DNA from: Anaerolineae bacterium
GTDB taxonomy: Bacteria; Chloroflexota; Anaerolineae; JAFGEY01
Direction of reading: 5' to 3'
NCBI GenBank assembly: GCA_016929205.1
Contig: JAFGJF010000398.1
Location: 1 to 6,234, forward strand
DNA length: 6,234 nt
Shown: positions 1-6,234 of the stretch, one piece after another
Layout: every line of letters starts with the position of its first letter
Numbering within the stretch: position 1 is the first letter of the stretch
Translations under genes and position numbers: made by a program
The notes under the pieces: generated by a model
Seen by the model: the letters and a program-made list of their open reading frames with translations, nothing else
Databases searched by the model: none
Told to the model about the DNA's origin: nothing

Positions 1-2462
1 GGAGCCGTGTTGAGCTGCGCGAGAGCCTGTCTGCCCAGGATGTGCTCAACCAACAGTTGGCGCGGATGAATGACGATCTGACGCAGCGGTCGGCGCACCT
101 GAGAGCTGCGGCTCAAATATCCCAGGTTGTGACCTCGGTCCACCAGACGGCCGATCTGCTAAAGCAGGTGGTCCAAGCGCTCTATACCAGTTTTGACATG
201 CACGCTGTCGTGTTCTTGCGCGACGAAAGCGGCGAGCAGATGACGGTCGCGGCGTCGAGCAGCGATACCTTGGGCGAAGTGCTGCGCATATCGATCGATC
301 GAGGGACCGCTGCCGGGCGGTGTGTTGCCGAGGTGCAGCCCTGTCTTGTGGCCGGGGCAGACCTGGTTCGCGCCGGCTATCATCTCCCAGAAACGCGCTT
401 TGAGGCGGCGATACCTTTGCTCTCTCGAGGCGAACAAGCCGGTCACCGTCGCGCAATCGGCGTGTTGGATCTGCAAAAGGCGGATGCCGATCCGCTGGAT
501 GAACAAGAGATGTCGATTCTGACGACCATTGCCGACCAGATTGCCAGCGGCATCACCAGCATCCGGGCCGAAGAAGAGACGCGCCAGGCGTTGCAGGATT
601 TGGAACAACTGCGGCAGCGATACGTGGGCGAGTCCTGGGACCAGCTTGCGCCGCGCCTTCAGGCCGCGGGCTATCGTTGGTCCGGTGGGGGCACGCTGCC
701 CCTGGGACACCGGCTCTTACCCGAGGCCGAGCGGGTGGTATCGATCCAGCATCCGGTGATGCAAGAGGGAAAACTGGTCGTGCCAATCTCTTATGGCGGG
801 CACGTGCTGGGTGTGCTGGGCGTGGACGATCCGGCAAACGCGGCGCAGTGGTCGGATGATGCCGTTGCCCTGGTCGAGTCGGTTGCCGAGCAGATGGGAC
901 AGGCTTTGGAAAACGCGCGCCTGTTTGAGGATGCACAGGCGAGGTTGGCCGAGATCACGGCCCTCCAGCAGAATCTGCTGCGGGAATCGTGGGAAGATTA
1001 TGTGTCGATCAAAGAGGAACGCGACTTTGTGTTCCGCCAGCCGGGCGTGTCCTCCTTGGACGTTGTTCCTGCCGAAGCCGAGCAGGTGTTGAGGAACAAG
1101 TCTTCGGTGTCGTGGACCAAGGAGGACAATGGTGATTCGGAAACGGCTTTTGTCGCTCCGATCGACAGACGTGGCCAGGTGATCGGCATGTTGGGGCTGC
1201 AAGAGGTGGGGATCAACCGGGAGTGGAGCGATGAAGAGATCGAGATTGTTCAAGCCGTCACTTCCCAGTTGTCGTCGGCTATCGAGAATGCCCAGTTATT
1301 CGAGTCGTTGCAGCAGCGCGCGGCCGAAATCGAGCGCGTTGCCGAGCAGTTACGCGAGACGGACCAGTTCCGCGCCGAGTTCCTGGCCACGATGTCGCAC
1401 GAGCTGCGCACGCCGCTCAACTCGATTATCGGTTTCTCGCGCGTGATGCTCAAAGGCATCGATGGCCCGTTGAACGAGATGCAGAAAACGGACCTGGAGG
1501 CGATTTACAACAACGGCCAGAATCTCTTGCGCTTGATCAATGACGTTTTGGACCAAAGCAAGATCGATGCCGGCAAGATGGAACTGCTCCTCGAGAACGA
1601 CGTCGATGTGTCGGATTTGCTCGACAAGGAGGTGCGCGGCACGCTTGCCGTTCAGATTGGCGAAAAGCCGATCGAGCCGGTGTTGAATGTCGCCTCGGAT
1701 ATGCCGGCGATTCGCGCCGACAGCACGCGGATCAGGCAGGTTCTCCGCAACCTGATGTCCAATGCGGCTAAATTCACCGAAGAAGGGTCGATCACGGTCA
1801 GTGCCTGGTGCGAAGAAGACCTGGTTTACATCAGCGTTGAGGACACGGGGATCGGCATGCAGGCGGAGAAAATAGACCTGGTTTTTGAAAAGTTCCGCCA
1901 GCTGGACTCGTCTTCGACGCGCGCGGCCGAAGGAACCGGCCTGGGGATGCCCATCAGCCGCACCCTGGTCGAGATGCACGGCGGCCGCATCTGGGTGGAA
2001 AGTGAAGAAGGCGTCGGCAGCAAGTTCACGTTCTTTTTGCCCGTCGCCGGGCCGATGGCCGAAGAGATACCCGAGTTGGCAGACCTGGCCATCGACAAGG
2101 CGAAAAAGATGGTCCTGGTCATTGAACGCGACGACTCTGAGGTGGCGACCTATCGCCGCTACCTGGACAGCGTCGGGTACCAGCTTGTCGGTTTGTTCGA
2201 TCCACAGAACGCCGTGCGCTGGTCGCGTCACTTGAACCCGTTTGTCATCTTGATGGATGTCGAGCTGGGAGGCGATCAAGGCTGGCACTTGCTGGAAACG
2301 CTCAAGTCGACGCGTCACACCCGGATGACGCCGGTCGTCGTCTGCTCCAGGTCGGATGTCGGCGCAGAGGCGATCAATATGGGGGCTGCTGCGTTTGTGC
2401 GCAAGCCGGTCGTGGCAAAACAGATGTTGGAATTGTTAAGCCGTTTAGCAGGAAGTGCTTGA
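1..2462 (+). CDS. Hybrid sensor histidine kinase with GAF modules and C-terminal receiver (5' partial)
   Basis: The reading frame is open to the left edge (first whole codon at 3), so the true start lies outside. The GTG at 42 follows in-frame coiled-coil-like residues and is probably internal. Numbering from that GTG: helical linker 1-37, GAF domain about 38-172, a shorter GAF-like unit about 190-292, a third about 308-418, HisKA about 443-508 with phospho-acceptor H453 in MSHELRTPLN, HATPase about 555-670 with N box (N570, N574), G1 motif DTGIGM (D601) and G2 motif GTGLGM (G631), then a receiver about 690-803 with candidate phospho-acceptor D739 and K788. HisKA/HATPase proteins autophosphorylate on His and pass the phosphate to a receiver Asp. 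The kinase core is intact, but the receiver looks weakened: an E-R-D-D stretch (E695-D698) replaces the usual acidic pair, and D739 is followed by VELGGDQG without the MP motif. No membrane segment is visible here; one could lie upstream. The next gene, 44 bases on, encodes a receiver-bearing enzyme and is a plausible partner. Kinase identity is certain; the signal is unknown. Confidence 0.95.
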   Translation, partial: SRVELRESLSAQDVLNQQLARMNDDLTQRSAHLRAAAQISQVVTSVHQTADLLKQVVQALYTSFDMHAVVFLRDESGEQMTVAASSSDTLGEVLRISIDRGTAAGRCVAEVQPCLVAGADLVRAGYHLPETRFEAAIPLLSRGEQAGHRRAIGVLDLQKADADPLDEQEMSILTTIADQIASGITSIRAEEETRQALQDLEQLRQRYVGESWDQLAPRLQAAGYRWSGGGTLPLGHRLLPEAERVVSIQHPVMQEGKLVVPISYGGHVLGVLGVDDPANAAQWSDDAVALVESVAEQMGQALENARLFEDAQARLAEITALQQNLLRESWEDYVSIKEERDFVFRQPGVSSLDVVPAEAEQVLRNKSSVSWTKEDNGDSETAFVAPIDRRGQVIGMLGLQEVGINREWSDEEIEIVQAVTSQLSSAIENAQLFESLQQRAAEIERVAEQLRETDQFRAEFLATMSHELRTPLNSIIGFSRVMLKGIDGPLNEMQKTDLEAIYNNGQNLLRLINDVLDQSKIDAGKMELLLENDVDVSDLLDKEVRGTLAVQIGEKPIEPVLNVASDMPAIRADSTRIRQVLRNLMSNAAKFTEEGSITVSAWCEEDLVYISVEDTGIGMQAEKIDLVFEKFRQLDSSSTRAAEGTGLGMPISRTLVEMHGGRIWVESEEGVGSKFTFFLPVAGPMAEEIPELADLAIDKAKKMVLVIERDDSEVATYRRYLDSVGYQLVGLFDPQNAVRWSRHLNPFVILMDVELGGDQGWHLLETLKSTRHTRMTPVVVCSRSDVGAEAINMGAAAFVRKPVVAKQMLELLSRLAGSA

Positions 2463-2476
2463 TGGAAGTGCTTGAT
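2451..2476. repeat. 13-bp perfect tandem duplication across the kinase stop codon
   Basis: GGAAGTGCTTGAT occurs twice back to back (2451-2463 and 2464-2476). The first copy contains the last kinase codons and the TGA stop; the second lies in the spacer. The second copy runs into a 12-bp palindrome GCTTGATCAAGC (2470-2481). This looks like a small slippage duplication that lengthened the spacer without changing the protein end. Confidence 0.8.
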
Positions 2477-2490
2477 CAAGCAGTTGATAT

Positions 2491-2494
2491 GGAG
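2491..2494 (+). promoter_or_regulatory. Ribosome binding site for the PLP enzyme-receiver gene
   Basis: GGAG lies 12 bases before the ATG at 2507, slightly longer spacing than usual. It supports that ATG, after which the encoded zinc-ribbon cysteines begin at residue 11. The ATG at 2496 is followed by GTG and then a stop, so it is not an alternative. Confidence 0.5.
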
Positions 2495-2506
2495 AATGTG
2501 TGACGA

Positions 2507-4183
2507 ATGGATGATATCCGCGAGAGTTATCTAGAATGCCCGAATTGTTCCTGGAAAGAGACCTATGTGCGTGCCAGAGAGGTGTGTCCATCGTGCGGGC
2601 ACGATTGGCTCGAGGTAAGCTATCCCTATGAAAAGGTGCGCTGGAGATGGGATAACGAGCTGGCCCAGCGTGATTTTGACATGTGGCGCTATCACGACCT
2701 GCTGCCTTTGCGCGATCTATCCAAGCGGGTGACGATGGGCGAGGGCGGGACGCCGCTCTACCAGGTGACCAACGTCGGTTTGATGCTCGGGCTGCGCCAC
2801 CTGTATCTCAAAGATGAGCGCCAGGGGCCGACCGGCTCGTTCAAAGATCGCCAGGCGGCGCTGGCCATCTCGGCGATGCGTGAGAACGGCGTGACCGAGG
2901 CCGTGCTGGCTTCGACCGGCAACGTCGCCATCTCGTATTCGGCTTATTCGACCCACGCCGGGATCAAGCTGTGGGCCTTTTTGCCCAGCAGCGTGCCGCC
3001 GGAAAAGATGCGCGAGATTGCGCTCTATGGGACCGACGTGATCAAGGTCACCGGCACGTATGACCAGACCAAGGTCGTGGCTCAGGATTTCGCCAAGAGC
3101 AAGGGGCTGTACTATGATCGTGGGCTCAAAAACATAGCCGCGCGCGAAGCGATGAAAACGCTGGGCTTTGAAACGGCCGAGCAGTTGGGCAAACTCCTTG
3201 GTCCGTCTGGGGGTGCGCCGTGGCGCGCGCCTGACTGGTATTTTCAGGCCGTCAGCGGGGCGATGGGCCCGGTCGGTGTGTGGAAATCGTTCCTGGAAAT
3301 GAGAGAAATGGGGCTGGTTGACAAACTGCCCAAGCTGGCCAATATCCAGGTGGCCGGCTGTGCGCCGATGGTCGATTCGTTCCAGGCCGGTTTGACCGAG
3401 GCCAAGTCGGTGCTGAATCCGCAGACGCTGATTGCAACCGTGGCCACCGGCACCCCAGGTGCGGCGTATACCTACCTGCGCCGGGTCCTGATGGAGCACG
3501 GCGGCGCATTTGAAAAAGTCACCGACGGCGAAGCGTTCCGGGCCATGCACGTCCTGGCCAAGATGGACGGGATCTCGATGGAGCCGGCGGCGGCCATGGC
3601 GTTTGCCGGCCTGTTCAAGATGGCTTCCCAGGGGATTCTTCAGCCCGATGACGTGATTGTCGTCAACTGCTCCGGCCACACCTTTCCCGTGGAAAAGTTT
3701 TTGCTGGGCGACGACTGGCAGCACAATGTCGAATTGGCCGGTGAGCAAGGAAGTGGAGAGCCGGTGGCCCAGGAGGAAGGGTTGTTGGCCTCGCTGGAAC
3801 ACCTCGACCAGCGCACGCGGCGTATTACCATTATTGAGGACAATGTCGATGCCGCGCGGCTGCTGCGGCGCGTGTTGCAGGCCCAGGGCGAATACCAGAT
3901 CGACGAGGCGCACAACGGCCGCGAGGGCCTGGAACTCGTGCGCCAGAACAGGCCCGATTTGATCCTGCTCGACTTGATGATGCCCGAGGTGGACGGGTTT
4001 GGGGTCATTGAGACGCTCAAAGCGGACGAGCGGTTCAGAGACATTCCGGTGATCGTGGTCACCGCCCAGGAACTCACCGCGAGCGAGCGGCAGCGTCTCG
4101 ATGGACACGTGCGCCGCCTGCTGCAAAAAGGCACGTTCTTGAGCACGGATATCCTGGACGAGATCGACGACATTTTGGGCTGA
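2507..4183 (+). CDS. Threonine synthase-like PLP enzyme fused to a CheY-like receiver domain
   Basis: This 558-residue protein joins two unrelated modules. Residues 11-30 form a zinc ribbon (CPNC...CPSC; C11, C14, C27, C30), as in many COG0498 threonine synthases. Residues about 75-400 are a fold-type II PLP domain: GPTGSFKDR holds the PLP lysine K113, and ASTGN (135-139) is the substrate/cofactor loop. Threonine synthase converts O-phosphohomoserine to threonine and phosphate in the cytoplasm. The later loops differ from the textbook enzyme: QAVSGAMGPVG stands where a GNxGN-type phosphate loop is expected, and NCSGHTFP (387-394) stands near the C-terminal TGHG-like motif. The exact substrate is therefore uncertain; a paralogue such as a cysteate-synthase-like enzyme is possible. 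An acidic linker (about 400-436) leads to a complete receiver (438-557) with E444/D445, phospho-acceptor D489 in LLDLMMPEVDGF, T519 and K541. Canonical threonine synthases of this type end near 350-450 residues and have no receiver. The gene follows a histidine kinase by 44 bases and precedes a transporter by 3, suggesting one operon and control by phosphorylation (inference). Confidence 0.92.
   Translation: MDDIRESYLECPNCSWKETYVRAREVCPSCGHDWLEVSYPYEKVRWRWDNELAQRDFDMWRYHDLLPLRDLSKRVTMGEGGTPLYQVTNVGLMLGLRHLYLKDERQGPTGSFKDRQAALAISAMRENGVTEAVLASTGNVAISYSAYSTHAGIKLWAFLPSSVPPEKMREIALYGTDVIKVTGTYDQTKVVAQDFAKSKGLYYDRGLKNIAAREAMKTLGFETAEQLGKLLGPSGGAPWRAPDWYFQAVSGAMGPVGVWKSFLEMREMGLVDKLPKLANIQVAGCAPMVDSFQAGLTEAKSVLNPQTLIATVATGTPGAAYTYLRRVLMEHGGAFEKVTDGEAFRAMHVLAKMDGISMEPAAAMAFAGLFKMASQGILQPDDVIVVNCSGHTFPVEKFLLGDDWQHNVELAGEQGSGEPVAQEEGLLASLEHLDQRTRRITIIEDNVDAARLLRRVLQAQGEYQIDEAHNGREGLELVRQNRPDLILLDLMMPEVDGFGVIETLKADERFRDIPVIVVTAQELTASERQRLDGHVRRLLQKGTFLSTDILDEIDDILG
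3771..3787 (+). promoter_or_regulatory. Possible internal ribosome binding site and start for a free-standing receiver
   Basis: A perfect AGGAGG (3771-3776) inside the linker is followed by in-frame TTG codons at 3782 (5 bases on) and 3785 (8 bases on). Initiation at either would give a protein of about 132-133 residues containing just the receiver. The bases also simply encode Gln-Glu-Glu-Gly, so chance is a real alternative. It could be functional internal initiation or a relic of a once separate response-regulator gene. Confidence 0.35.
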
Positions 4184-4186
4184 GCT

Positions 4187-5110
4187 ATGCAAAAGTCTCG
4201 TTTGCGCGGCATCGTGCTGGCCCTGACGTCGACTGTTTTCTTTGGTATGGCGCCCATTTTTGGCAAGCTGGCCTACCGCGCCCAGGTTCTGCCCTTTACC
4301 CTGGTGATGCTGCGCACGGTGTTTGCCGCGCTGGCCTTGTGGGTTTTTTACCTGCTCTTTTGGCGCGACGCGATCCGGATCAGCTTGCAAAATCTGGCGG
4401 GCTGCGTGGGCATGGGCGTGGCCAACGGGCTGGGCTCACTGCTCTATTATTCCGGACTGGGCCGCATCGATGCTTCCCTGGCCCAGTTGTTGTACACGCT
4501 CTACCCGATCTGGGTGTTTATCTTTTTGTTTGCCGCCGGGCATCGCGTGTCCCGTATGTCTATTGCCCGGCTCGCGCTGGCGCTGATCGGCGTTTTTGCC
4601 CTGACCTATACCGGCACGCAGGGCGTCGATTGGCTGGGCGTGATGCTGCTCCTGAGTTCGGGCGCTTTGTACGCCTGGCACCTCGTCCTGGGGCAGTGGA
4701 CGCTGGCCGATATGGATTCGCGCTCGGTGACCCTGTACGTCCTGTCGACGATGGCCGTGGTCGTGACCGCTGCGCGCCTGTTGAACGGCGCGCCGTGGAC
4801 GCCGATCAGGGCCGATGGGTGGCTGGCTGTCCTGGGGTTGACCCTCTTTCCCACGATCCTGGCGCGCCTGTTAATGTTTGCCGGCCTGCAAAGCCTGGGC
4901 GGGGCGCAAACCTCGCTGCTGGGGCTGGCCGAACTGCTGGTCGCGCTGCTGGTGGCCTTTTTGTGGCTGGGCGAGCGGTTGACGCTGTGGCAGTGGTTGG
5001 GTGGCGTGTTTCTGATGGTCAGTGTGATCCTGGGGCGGCGAGAGAGCGACCTGGAAGTGAGCCTCGAGGAACTGCTGGTCGAGGGACGCTGGCGCGAGAT
5101 CGCGAAATAG
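4187..5110 (+). CDS. EamA/DMT-family transporter, ten predicted membrane helices
   Basis: This 307-residue, strongly hydrophobic protein has two EamA-like repeats of five helices. Approximate helices are 6-26, 35-58, 69-90, 96-116, 125-143, 148-168, 180-198, 211-233, 243-262 and 267-284. The second repeat ends in the family-typical LWLGERLTLWQWLGG segment (E263) followed by a final helix. A charged tail of about 24 residues is probably cytoplasmic. Length and helix count match drug/metabolite transporters, which include amino-acid exporters such as RhtA, but substrate cannot be read from sequence. The ATG is 3 bases after the preceding stop, with no clear Shine-Dalgarno beyond a weak GGGCTGAG, so translational coupling to the PLP enzyme is likely. 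Its position suggests it moves that enzyme's substrate or product, for example a threonine-related amino acid (inference). A strong terminator follows directly. Confidence 0.9.
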   Translation: MQKSRLRGIVLALTSTVFFGMAPIFGKLAYRAQVLPFTLVMLRTVFAALALWVFYLLFWRDAIRISLQNLAGCVGMGVANGLGSLLYYSGLGRIDASLAQLLYTLYPIWVFIFLFAAGHRVSRMSIARLALALIGVFALTYTGTQGVDWLGVMLLLSSGALYAWHLVLGQWTLADMDSRSVTLYVLSTMAVVVTAARLLNGAPWTPIRADGWLAVLGLTLFPTILARLLMFAGLQSLGGAQTSLLGLAELLVALLVAFLWLGERLTLWQWLGGVFLMVSVILGRRESDLEVSLEELLVEGRWREIAK

Positions 5111-5112
5111 CT

Positions 5113-5145
5113 AAAAACCAGGCTTTTCACAAAAGCCTGGTTTTT
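5113..5145. terminator. Bidirectional Rho-independent terminator between convergent genes
   Basis: Perfect 15-base arms AAAAACCAGGCTTTT (5113-5127) and AAAAGCCTGGTTTTT (5131-5145) flank a CAC loop. The arm ends supply a T run after the GC stem on both strands. It lies 2 bases after the transporter stop and 7 bases beyond the minus-strand stop at 5153, so it can end transcription from both sides. Confidence 0.93.
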
Positions 5146-5152
5146 GTTAGTG

Positions 5153-5932
5153 TCAGGGAACGGCCGCGTCTTTTTTGACAAACGTCTCCGGCACCCAGCC
5201 TTTTTGCCCCTCAGCGGCCACTTTGAAATAGGTCCGTTCTTCGGGTTCGGACCATGCCTCGGCCAGCACCGATATCATCGTATTGTGCGGCAGTTGGCCG
5301 ACCTGGCCCCCGCGTGAGACGCCGTCGCCAACTTTTTCCCACAAGATGATCTGGCTGTTGTTTTGCTCGCAGGGCAGGCACCACAGGGTGGCCTCATAGA
5401 GCACCCTTTCGGGCGTCGGTTTCAGGCGTTCCTGGCCTCGGGGCTTGATCACGGTCAGGGTGACGACGATCAAGACGATCCCGCAAACCGCGCTGACGAT
5501 CATCATAGCCGCCAGCATAATGTTGCGGTAGCCGTGCCTCCGTCTTTGTTCTAGTGCGGGATCGTACAGGTTGCGGCTGTCCTGGGGCGTGTCTGCTGCC
5601 GGGCGCGCGCTCTGGTCCTCTGCGGCGATCGTTTCGGGACGATCTGGGGGTGTAGAGACGGACGTCATGGTGTCTACTGCCGCGGTACCGGAGCGCGCAG
5701 GTTGTTCTCCGCGCAGTTCGGCCAGCCTGGCCCGGGCGATCGCATTCTCGGGCTCGATCGCCAGCGCTCGCAGCAGGCAGTCGAGCTTGTGCTCTTGCCG
5801 CTCGACCACCTCGCTCATCCACAGCCACGCTTCCACGTTGCCCGGCTCGGCGCGCAAGATCTGTCCCAGCAGGCGTCGGCCTGTGGCTGTGTCACCAGAT
5901 TGGATGGCTTGAATCGCTTGCTGTAAAGTCAT
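5153..5932 (-). CDS. TPR-like, single-pass membrane protein with C-terminal SH3-like domain
   Basis: From the ATG at 5932 the protein has 259 residues. Residues 1-72 are helical and TPR-like, with the segments GRRLLGQILRAEPGNVEAWLW and LLRALAIEPENAIARARLAEL. A Pro/Thr/Ala/Glu-rich linker (about 75-125) follows, then a basic RRRHGYR stop (130-136) and one membrane helix (about 138-162). The remainder (163-259) carries a CLPC pair (C185, C188) and an SH3b-like segment (about 210-252, with QLPHNTMISVLAEAW and GWVPETFV). The positive-inside rule puts the TPR part in the cytoplasm and the SH3-like part outside. An in-frame TTG at 5968 would add 12 residues encoded partly by the palindrome and is rejected as the start. 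No clear Shine-Dalgarno is visible. It follows the isoleucyl-tRNA synthetase gene in the same direction with 65 bases between, so it may be co-transcribed. Such proteins may act in envelope assembly or binding, but no function is assigned; TPR and SH3 calls are by eye. Confidence 0.85.
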   Translation of the reverse strand: MTLQQAIQAIQSGDTATGRRLLGQILRAEPGNVEAWLWMSEVVERQEHKLDCLLRALAIEPENAIARARLAELRGEQPARSGTAAVDTMTSVSTPPDRPETIAAEDQSARPAADTPQDSRNLYDPALEQRRRHGYRNIMLAAMMIVSAVCGIVLIVVTLTVIKPRGQERLKPTPERVLYEATLWCLPCEQNNSQIILWEKVGDGVSRGGQVGQLPHNTMISVLAEAWSEPEERTYFKVAAEGQKGWVPETFVKKDAAVP

Positions 5933-5945
5933 AGTTGTGTATTCG

Positions 5946-5983
5946 GTAGGGGCCACGCACTTGATCAAGTGCGTGGCCCCTAC
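5946..5983. repeat. 38-bp perfect palindrome (dispersed-repeat-like)
   Basis: The half-site GTAGGGGCCACGCACTTGA (5946-5964) is followed at once by its exact reverse complement (5965-5983), with no spacer. It fills over half of the 65-base gap between the isoleucyl-tRNA synthetase stop and the TPR-protein start. The outer GTAGGGGC/GCCCCTAC ends resemble palindromic repeats I recall from Chloroflexota and cyanobacterial genomes. As RNA it would form a very stable hairpin, but no T run follows on either strand, so it is not a standard terminator. Confidence 0.9.
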
Positions 5984-5997
5984 GGTACGGTATCGAT

Positions 5998-6234
5998 CTA
6001 TTCAACCCGTTTCACGCCGATGGTCACACTTTCATCCGCCAGCTCAAACGTCTCGACGTGGCTGCCATCGGGTGCCGGCCCGGCGACGAGGTCGGAGGCC
6101 AGCGTTTCGGCGGCGATGTAATCGCCCAGCGTCTCGAACACGGCGGCCAACGCGGCCCCGGCCTGGTAGGCCAGCAGCACCCGGTCTTCGATCTCGAACC
6201 CGGCGTTTTTGCGCGCGTCCTGGACGCGGCGCAC
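5998..6234 (-). CDS. ileS: Isoleucyl-tRNA synthetase, C-terminal end (partial)
   Basis: Only the last 78 residues are in the window; the gene enters from the right edge and stops at TAG (6000-5998). The segment begins VRRVQDARKNAGFEIEDRV, the characteristic opening of the C-terminal domain of the long bacterial/eukaryote-like class of isoleucyl-tRNA synthetases (DUF5915-type region). It continues through a helical stretch with DYIAAETLASDL and ends in a beta-rich tail (VETFELADESVTIGVKRVE). The full enzyme, usually about 1000 residues or more, charges tRNA-Ile in the cytoplasm; its catalytic HIGH and KMSKS motifs lie outside the window. The GTG at 6234 is internal, not a start. Identification rests on this short but conserved tail. 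Confidence 0.85.
   Translation of the reverse strand: MRRVQDARKNAGFEIEDRVLLAYQAGAALAAVFETLGDYIAAETLASDLVAGPAPDGSHVETFELADESVTIGVKRVE

Follow-up and report, generated by a model that had tools for sequence, protein, structure and literature searches.

The gene considered here lies at positions 2507 to 4183 on the forward strand of a 6,234-nucleotide stretch from an Anaerolineae bacterium (GTDB JAFGEY01; assembly GCA_016929205.1, contig JAFGJF010000398.1, positions 1–6,234, forward strand), which we call the window. It encodes a protein in which a threonine-synthase-like, fold type II enzyme dependent on pyridoxal 5'-phosphate (PLP), recognized by the Pfam domain PALP, is joined to a C-terminal receiver domain (REC). 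The conserved PALP-REC fusion, the intact phosphoacceptor site and the presence of a kinase gene at almost every locus are, on the sequence evidence, best read as a two-component switch on a PLP enzyme. In its full form, which we hold with moderate confidence, the proposal is that the protein is a response regulator with a catalytic threonine-synthase-like output of a distinct subfamily, placed under phosphorylation control by the adjoining kinase. Computation establishes four things: that the two domains are fused, that the PLP and phosphorylation sites are each conserved, that a kinase gene lies close by, and that the enzyme has diverged from true threonine synthases (ThrC).

The gene is a single unbroken frame from ATG to TGA, giving a product of 558 residues. 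In Pfam, PALP matches residues 75–390 (positions 2729–3676) with an E-value of 4.2e-60 and 204 bits against a cut-off of 35, and Response_reg matches residues 440–541 (6e-20, 71.9 bits against a cut-off of 30.2). Upstream of PALP are the four zinc-ribbon cysteines C11, C14, C27 and C30 (2537–2596). The predicted Schiff-base lysine, K113 (2843–2845), is held in a GSFKDR motif and aligns with K61 of the Thermus thermophilus threonine synthase (PDB 1uim); in its fold type II PLP fold and its Schiff-base lysine the protein agrees with ThrC. The receiver, taken as residues 440–558 (3824–4180), has the full residue set: the acidic pair E444/D445 (D445 at 3839–3841), the predicted phosphoacceptor D489 (3971–3973), the switch residue T519 (4061–4063) and the conserved lysine K541 (4127–4129). 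An initial annotation of this DNA had described a zinc-ribbon PLP enzyme running in frame into a complete receiver, and both the architecture and the positions of K113, E444/D445, D489, T519 and K541 are exactly as it gave them. The AlphaFold2 model, in which the PALP domain matches threonine synthases, has a mean predicted local distance difference test score (pLDDT) of 86.5 over the whole protein. Scores fall below 50 in parts of the linker (residues 391–439, positions 3677–3823), namely residues 392–400 and 411–424, and at the C-terminal end of the receiver (residues 545–558).

The fusion is widespread, and it is conserved at both sites. When the window's own protein, the 120 best proteins of each of three protein searches and the fused open reading frames (ORFs) of fetched loci were pooled, the resulting 434 distinct proteins split into 401 with REC, 29 without and four partial. 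In three of the partial rows (P0282, P0326 and P0345) REC is truncated or frameshifted, and the fourth (P0279) clusters with unfused rows in a tree of 83 rows. K113, D445, D489 and K541 are invariant in all 401 fused rows, the window's included, which are related rather than independent and have an effective number of about 88 at 80% identity. Position 444 is Glu in 241 rows and Asp in 160, and position 519 is always Thr (273) or Ser (128). The asparagine of the STGN motif, N139, is kept in 401 of 401 rows and S250 in 399; C11, C14, C27 and C30 are always Cys where aligned (377, 378, 388 and 389 of the 401, respectively, the rest being gaps). PALP and REC are both present in all of the best 120 proteins, the window's own among them, out of 5.8 billion searched, at 64–90% identity, and the fusion also occurs in the named strains Thermanaerothrix daxensis, Levilinea saccharolytica and Herpetosiphon giganteus. 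The alignments clearly show that one polypeptide retains both the PLP site and the site of phosphorylation. A longer form is also found: at L149:7671–10109 on the reverse strand (the same gene as L138), PALP is followed by two receivers in one frame (PALP-REC-REC), with a kinase core closely preceding it and a TPR-PAS-GAF histidine kinase on its downstream side.

Within the Chloroflexota, the phylum of T. daxensis (G001), the PALP half was used to search 301 sampled genomes. It gave 43 matches of at least 404 bits in 34 of the 301, the next match scoring 216 bits. Every one of the 43 sits in an open frame of at least 551 codons, and REC was verified in 30, those fetched as loci; frame length alone is not proof of REC, since some weaker matches also sit in long frames. 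Nine of the 34 genomes have two fusion-length matches each (for example G057, with C2 and C8), and the second copy is 50–52% identical to the PALP half of the window's protein. Three loci with similar identity (L042, L043 and L044) have a stand-alone REC gene directly downstream.

The candidate partner of the receiver lies immediately upstream. A hybrid histidine kinase with GAF repeats, HisKA, HATPase_c and a REC of its own occupies positions 3–2462 on the forward strand, is open at the 5' end of the window and stops 44 bases before the fusion ATG. This arrangement is the rule among the 50 fused loci, which include the window. Where there is room on both sides (45 loci), a kinase core is directly adjacent in 44; in the exception, L044, tblastn places a kinase core in the upstream flank. 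With the kinase core alone as the query, a match was found within 1290 bp of 49 of the 50 fused genes, compared with one of 24 unfused paralogue or ThrC loci from fusion-bearing genomes (of 27 unfused loci, L087, L090 and L105 were excluded). An earlier query had contained the core and its REC, so that a REC alone could have matched; the core-only repeat gave the same counts. No kinase core lies within 1290 bp of three unfused cyanobacterial genes (0/3; a fourth, L146, was excluded). In a second, partly overlapping sample, a kinase is near 28 of 30 fused loci. Many fused loci have short or overlapping gene junctions, and in L014, L006, L009, L015 and L046 the fusion and kinase genes overlap by 4 bases (the L014 kinase being of the REC-HisKA-HATPase type). 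In a tree of 66 RECs over 123 columns, which has few supported forks, the 22 RECs taken from fusions fall together with 13 of the 20 that are the last REC of an upstream kinase (Shimodaira-Hasegawa-like approximate likelihood ratio test, 92); the REC of the window's own kinase falls elsewhere. This grouping hints that the fusion REC may have been derived from a neighbouring kinase. On the gene context, the adjoining histidine kinase is the likely partner of the fusion receiver.

If so, the switch would operate as follows. The adjoining kinase, in the window the GAF-repeat hybrid kinase, would sense a cue and pass phosphate to D489, for which it is the presumed donor. Phosphorylation of D489 would alter the receiver surface, and the altered receiver could change the activity, the lid closure or the oligomer state of the PLP domain. 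The signal would thereby directly govern how fast a single amino-acid-like product forms.

Several points weigh against this proposal. The predicted template modelling score of the AlphaFold2 model is 0.72 and the linker is of low confidence, so the packing of the two domains is not fixed by the model. For two of the 30 loci in the second sample (L113 and L114) the flanks contain no kinase, and the 19.5-kb stretches L150 and L151 gave no kinase match either. The kinase's own REC, or other nearby receivers, may be its true targets. The nine enzyme positions that set the fused proteins apart from ThrC (listed below) are all retained in the four unfused relatives from Cyanobacteria, so this type of enzyme does not require REC. 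Finally, no enrichment of covariation between PALP and REC was detected: such pairs make up 91 of the top 300 where 102 were expected (401 rows, effective number 88), and the top pairs may be phylogenetic.

The last of these would also fit a receiver that served as a member of a phosphorelay, as a tether to a kinase scaffold or as a phosphate sink, with the PLP domain constitutively active, an alternative that we regard as possible though rather unlikely. It is consistent with the RECs carried by the adjoining hybrid kinases themselves, with the further kinase genes that immediately follow the fusion in 21 of the 50 loci (REC-HisKA-HATPase in the representatives scanned with Pfam) and the stand-alone REC genes that do so in three, and with the existence of the PALP-REC-REC form. 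A receiver that was only a sink or a relay would, however, give the enzyme no cause to remain joined to it, and yet all 43 strong Chloroflexota matches are of fusion length, with the REC verified in 30.

What the enzyme half does is a separate matter, and the obvious candidate is threonine synthesis: the fusion could be the cell's threonine synthase, or a second one, to which REC was added to regulate the pathway. The best NCBIfam models for the window protein are indeed threonine synthases, and the cut-off of TIGR00260 is exceeded by at least two of the fused relatives (ORFs L098 and L109). Among solved structures, too, those most similar to it are threonine synthases, although a cysteate synthase also ranks near the top (residues 8–396 are compared in the VIA-align table). 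The window protein itself stays below both curated cut-offs, with 137.6 against 167.1 bits for TIGR00260 and 260.6 against 303 for PRK08197. Moreover, each of 12 fusion-bearing genomes, chosen by us out of the 50 fused loci, also encodes at least one REC-less protein above the TIGR00260 cut-off, which rules out the fusion as the sole ThrC-type protein of the cell in those genomes. None of the ten neighbour proteins scanned with Pfam is an amino-acid pathway enzyme.

The active site points the same way. In an alignment of 62 fused, six canonical ThrC and 19 other unfused rows, T88, N154, S155, R160 and N188 of 1uim, which we take to be the residues that contact the phosphate of phosphohomoserine in the T. 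thermophilus enzyme, are kept in all six canonical rows and align with V140, R205, G206, A212 and G251 of the window protein. In the 62 fused rows the five positions are Val (57) or Ala (5), mostly Arg (44), Gly (62), mostly Ala (39) and Gly (62). Next to the replaced R160, however, R213 is Arg in 34 of the 62 fused rows, so the alignment there leaves some room, and K116 of ThrC is retained as K167; part of the anion site may therefore persist. Nine positions (R105, Q116, K189, S250, G251, G254, P255, C285 and Y321) never vary among the 62 fused rows, and each differs in all six canonical rows. Given the unfused ThrC-type protein in all 12 genomes and the replacement of most of the presumed phosphate contacts, the window protein is probably not the threonine synthase, and a ThrC role for the fusion is decidedly improbable. 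An active site that is conserved and yet different would point to another substrate. The initial annotation had proposed a direct two-component switch on an amino-acid biosynthetic enzyme; the fusion, the intact phosphoacceptor and the adjoining kinase favour such a switch, while the same low scores, ThrC-type proteins and replaced contacts leave the enzyme's identity as a biosynthetic threonine synthase unsupported.

Another potential role for the PLP domain is that of a non-catalytic ligand sensor which informs the two-component network. The scanned neighbours are mostly signalling proteins, in keeping with such a role, but the invariance of K113 and N139 and the near-invariance of S250 in the fused rows, together with the retention of all three residues in the four unfused cyanobacterial relatives, make a non-catalytic domain very improbable.

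The cyanobacterial proteins are also informative about the history of the fusion. Relatives at 50–54% identity were found in four of 194 sampled cyanobacterial genomes (the phylum of locus L071), and the same four were recovered from an overlapping draw of 244; overall the unfused cyanobacterial relatives are 47–54% identical. Three of the four are ORFs of 398–420 residues that end just past PALP, and the fourth (L146) runs to the end of its contig, so that its C-terminus lies outside the contig. The three (L145, L147 and L148) are 47–51% identical over PALP by BLAST and share all nine fused-invariant positions, but unlike the fused proteins they stop after PALP and have no kinase nearby (0/3). 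Beside one of these PALP genes, at L147:8092–9807, is a gene for a GH3-family protein, with similar letters seen by eye at L148:2–781, a possible hint to the pathway of the PALP enzyme. In five other phyla (those of L068, L056, L055, L074 and L075), matches at E 1e-70 were found in 0/199, 0/188, 0/199, 0/198 and 0/200 sampled genomes, respectively; the same query did detect matches in the Chloroflexota and Cyanobacteria, and all of these phylum searches are of samples of genomes.

In the trees, the unfused rows form one clade with a support of 99. The first tree, of 83 rows, nests them among the fused ones. An approximately unbiased (AU) test on 64 rows does not reject a tree in which all fused rows make up a single clade (p 0.672), and that tree scores 8.1 log units higher. 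The set for the AU test dropped 21 of the 83 rows, namely P0282, P0326 and P0345, which had been labelled unfused in the first tree, the long-branch rows L149 and L089, and 16 thinned rows (12 unfused, one outgroup and three fused); two outgroup rows were added. A single gain or a single loss of REC would explain the pattern of fused and unfused proteins, in either direction. With the unfused Cyanobacteria in one clade and no kinase near the three tested, the cyanobacterial pattern is better explained by one gain or one loss of the domain than by an artefact. The initial annotation had held that close relatives lacking the fusion would speak against its claim; such relatives do exist, confined to one clade in a few Cyanobacteria and, in the three tested, away from kinase genes, and the strong Chloroflexota matches are all of fusion length. 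It had also argued against an assembly artefact, and with REC in 401 of the 434 pooled proteins this is borne out. A chimeric assembly, or a missed stop between two neighbouring genes, has no supporting point that we could find and can be rejected with near certainty, given the same fusion in some 400 distinct proteins from several sources, three named strains among them.

Bacteria are known to have receivers joined to standard metabolic enzymes, and archaea follow the same trend, with fusions of narrow distribution, according to PMC5847659; section 14 of that article names no PLP enzyme. The window protein resembles the REC-enzyme response regulators covered there in having an intact receiver on an enzyme, and differs in that the enzyme is threonine-synthase-like, REC is C-terminal and the protein turned up in 34 of the 301 genomes sampled from a single phylum. 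ThrC (TIGR00260/PRK08197; PDB 1uim/1v7c, 2zsj and 2c2b) has no C-terminal REC, in addition to the differences in score, phosphate contacts and nine invariant positions described above. Cysteate synthase (CapA2 of Alistipes finegoldii, PDB 9k3c) is 24% identical and likewise has no REC; on the cysteate synthase model TIGR03844 the window protein scores 119 bits, below the cut-off of 324.9. Full-text searches of the open-licence PMC literature found no description of a threonine-synthase/PALP-REC family, itself a weak negative. A REC on a metabolic enzyme is thus already known, and the threonine-synthase-like PALP-REC family, not found described, is unusually well conserved.

The remaining genes around the fusion are of several kinds. 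In the window, an EamA-family transporter (4187–5110, forward strand) begins with an ATG 3 bases after the fusion stop, and of the 50 fused loci, 21 have an EamA relative as the next gene downstream. Beyond it, at 5153–5968 on the reverse strand, is a 271-residue TPR-repeat protein with a transmembrane segment recognized by eye and no NCBIfam match. Farther upstream, the scanned representatives have proteins of the dCache-HAMP-GAF or GAF type and an ATPase of the ParA/MinD type. The ATPase gene (L028:3056–3862, and cluster c5 in other loci) is the second gene before the fusion, and its neighbours encode a sensor-type GAF protein and the large hybrid kinase. Loci of the L014 type adjoin a divergent cluster, which in L014 encodes a Ser/Thr kinase-PQQ protein, a PP2C phosphatase and a DnaJ-VWA protein. 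More speculatively, the fusion could lie at the heart of a two-component system with a metabolite as its output, a module for chemical signalling among some Chloroflexota, in which the receiver-controlled PLP enzyme, phosphorylated by the kinase, would make an amino-acid-like signal from a substrate other than that of ThrC and the co-encoded EamA protein would export it; we consider this unlikely.

If a receiver-controlled PLP enzyme is the correct interpretation, the family would be a well conserved case of a phosphorelay whose direct target is a small-molecule PLP enzyme and not transcription. T. daxensis, L. saccharolytica and H. giganteus are named hosts in which receiver control of a fold type II PLP enzyme could be studied, and the unfused cyanobacterial relatives provide a natural control for the effect of the receiver. 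There is also a warning for annotation, in that Chloroflexota proteins labelled threonine synthase include a signalling paralogue, probably with another reaction. With the fusion gene nearly always beside a sensor kinase gene, the family hints that in some Chloroflexota a signal may directly tune a small-molecule enzyme.
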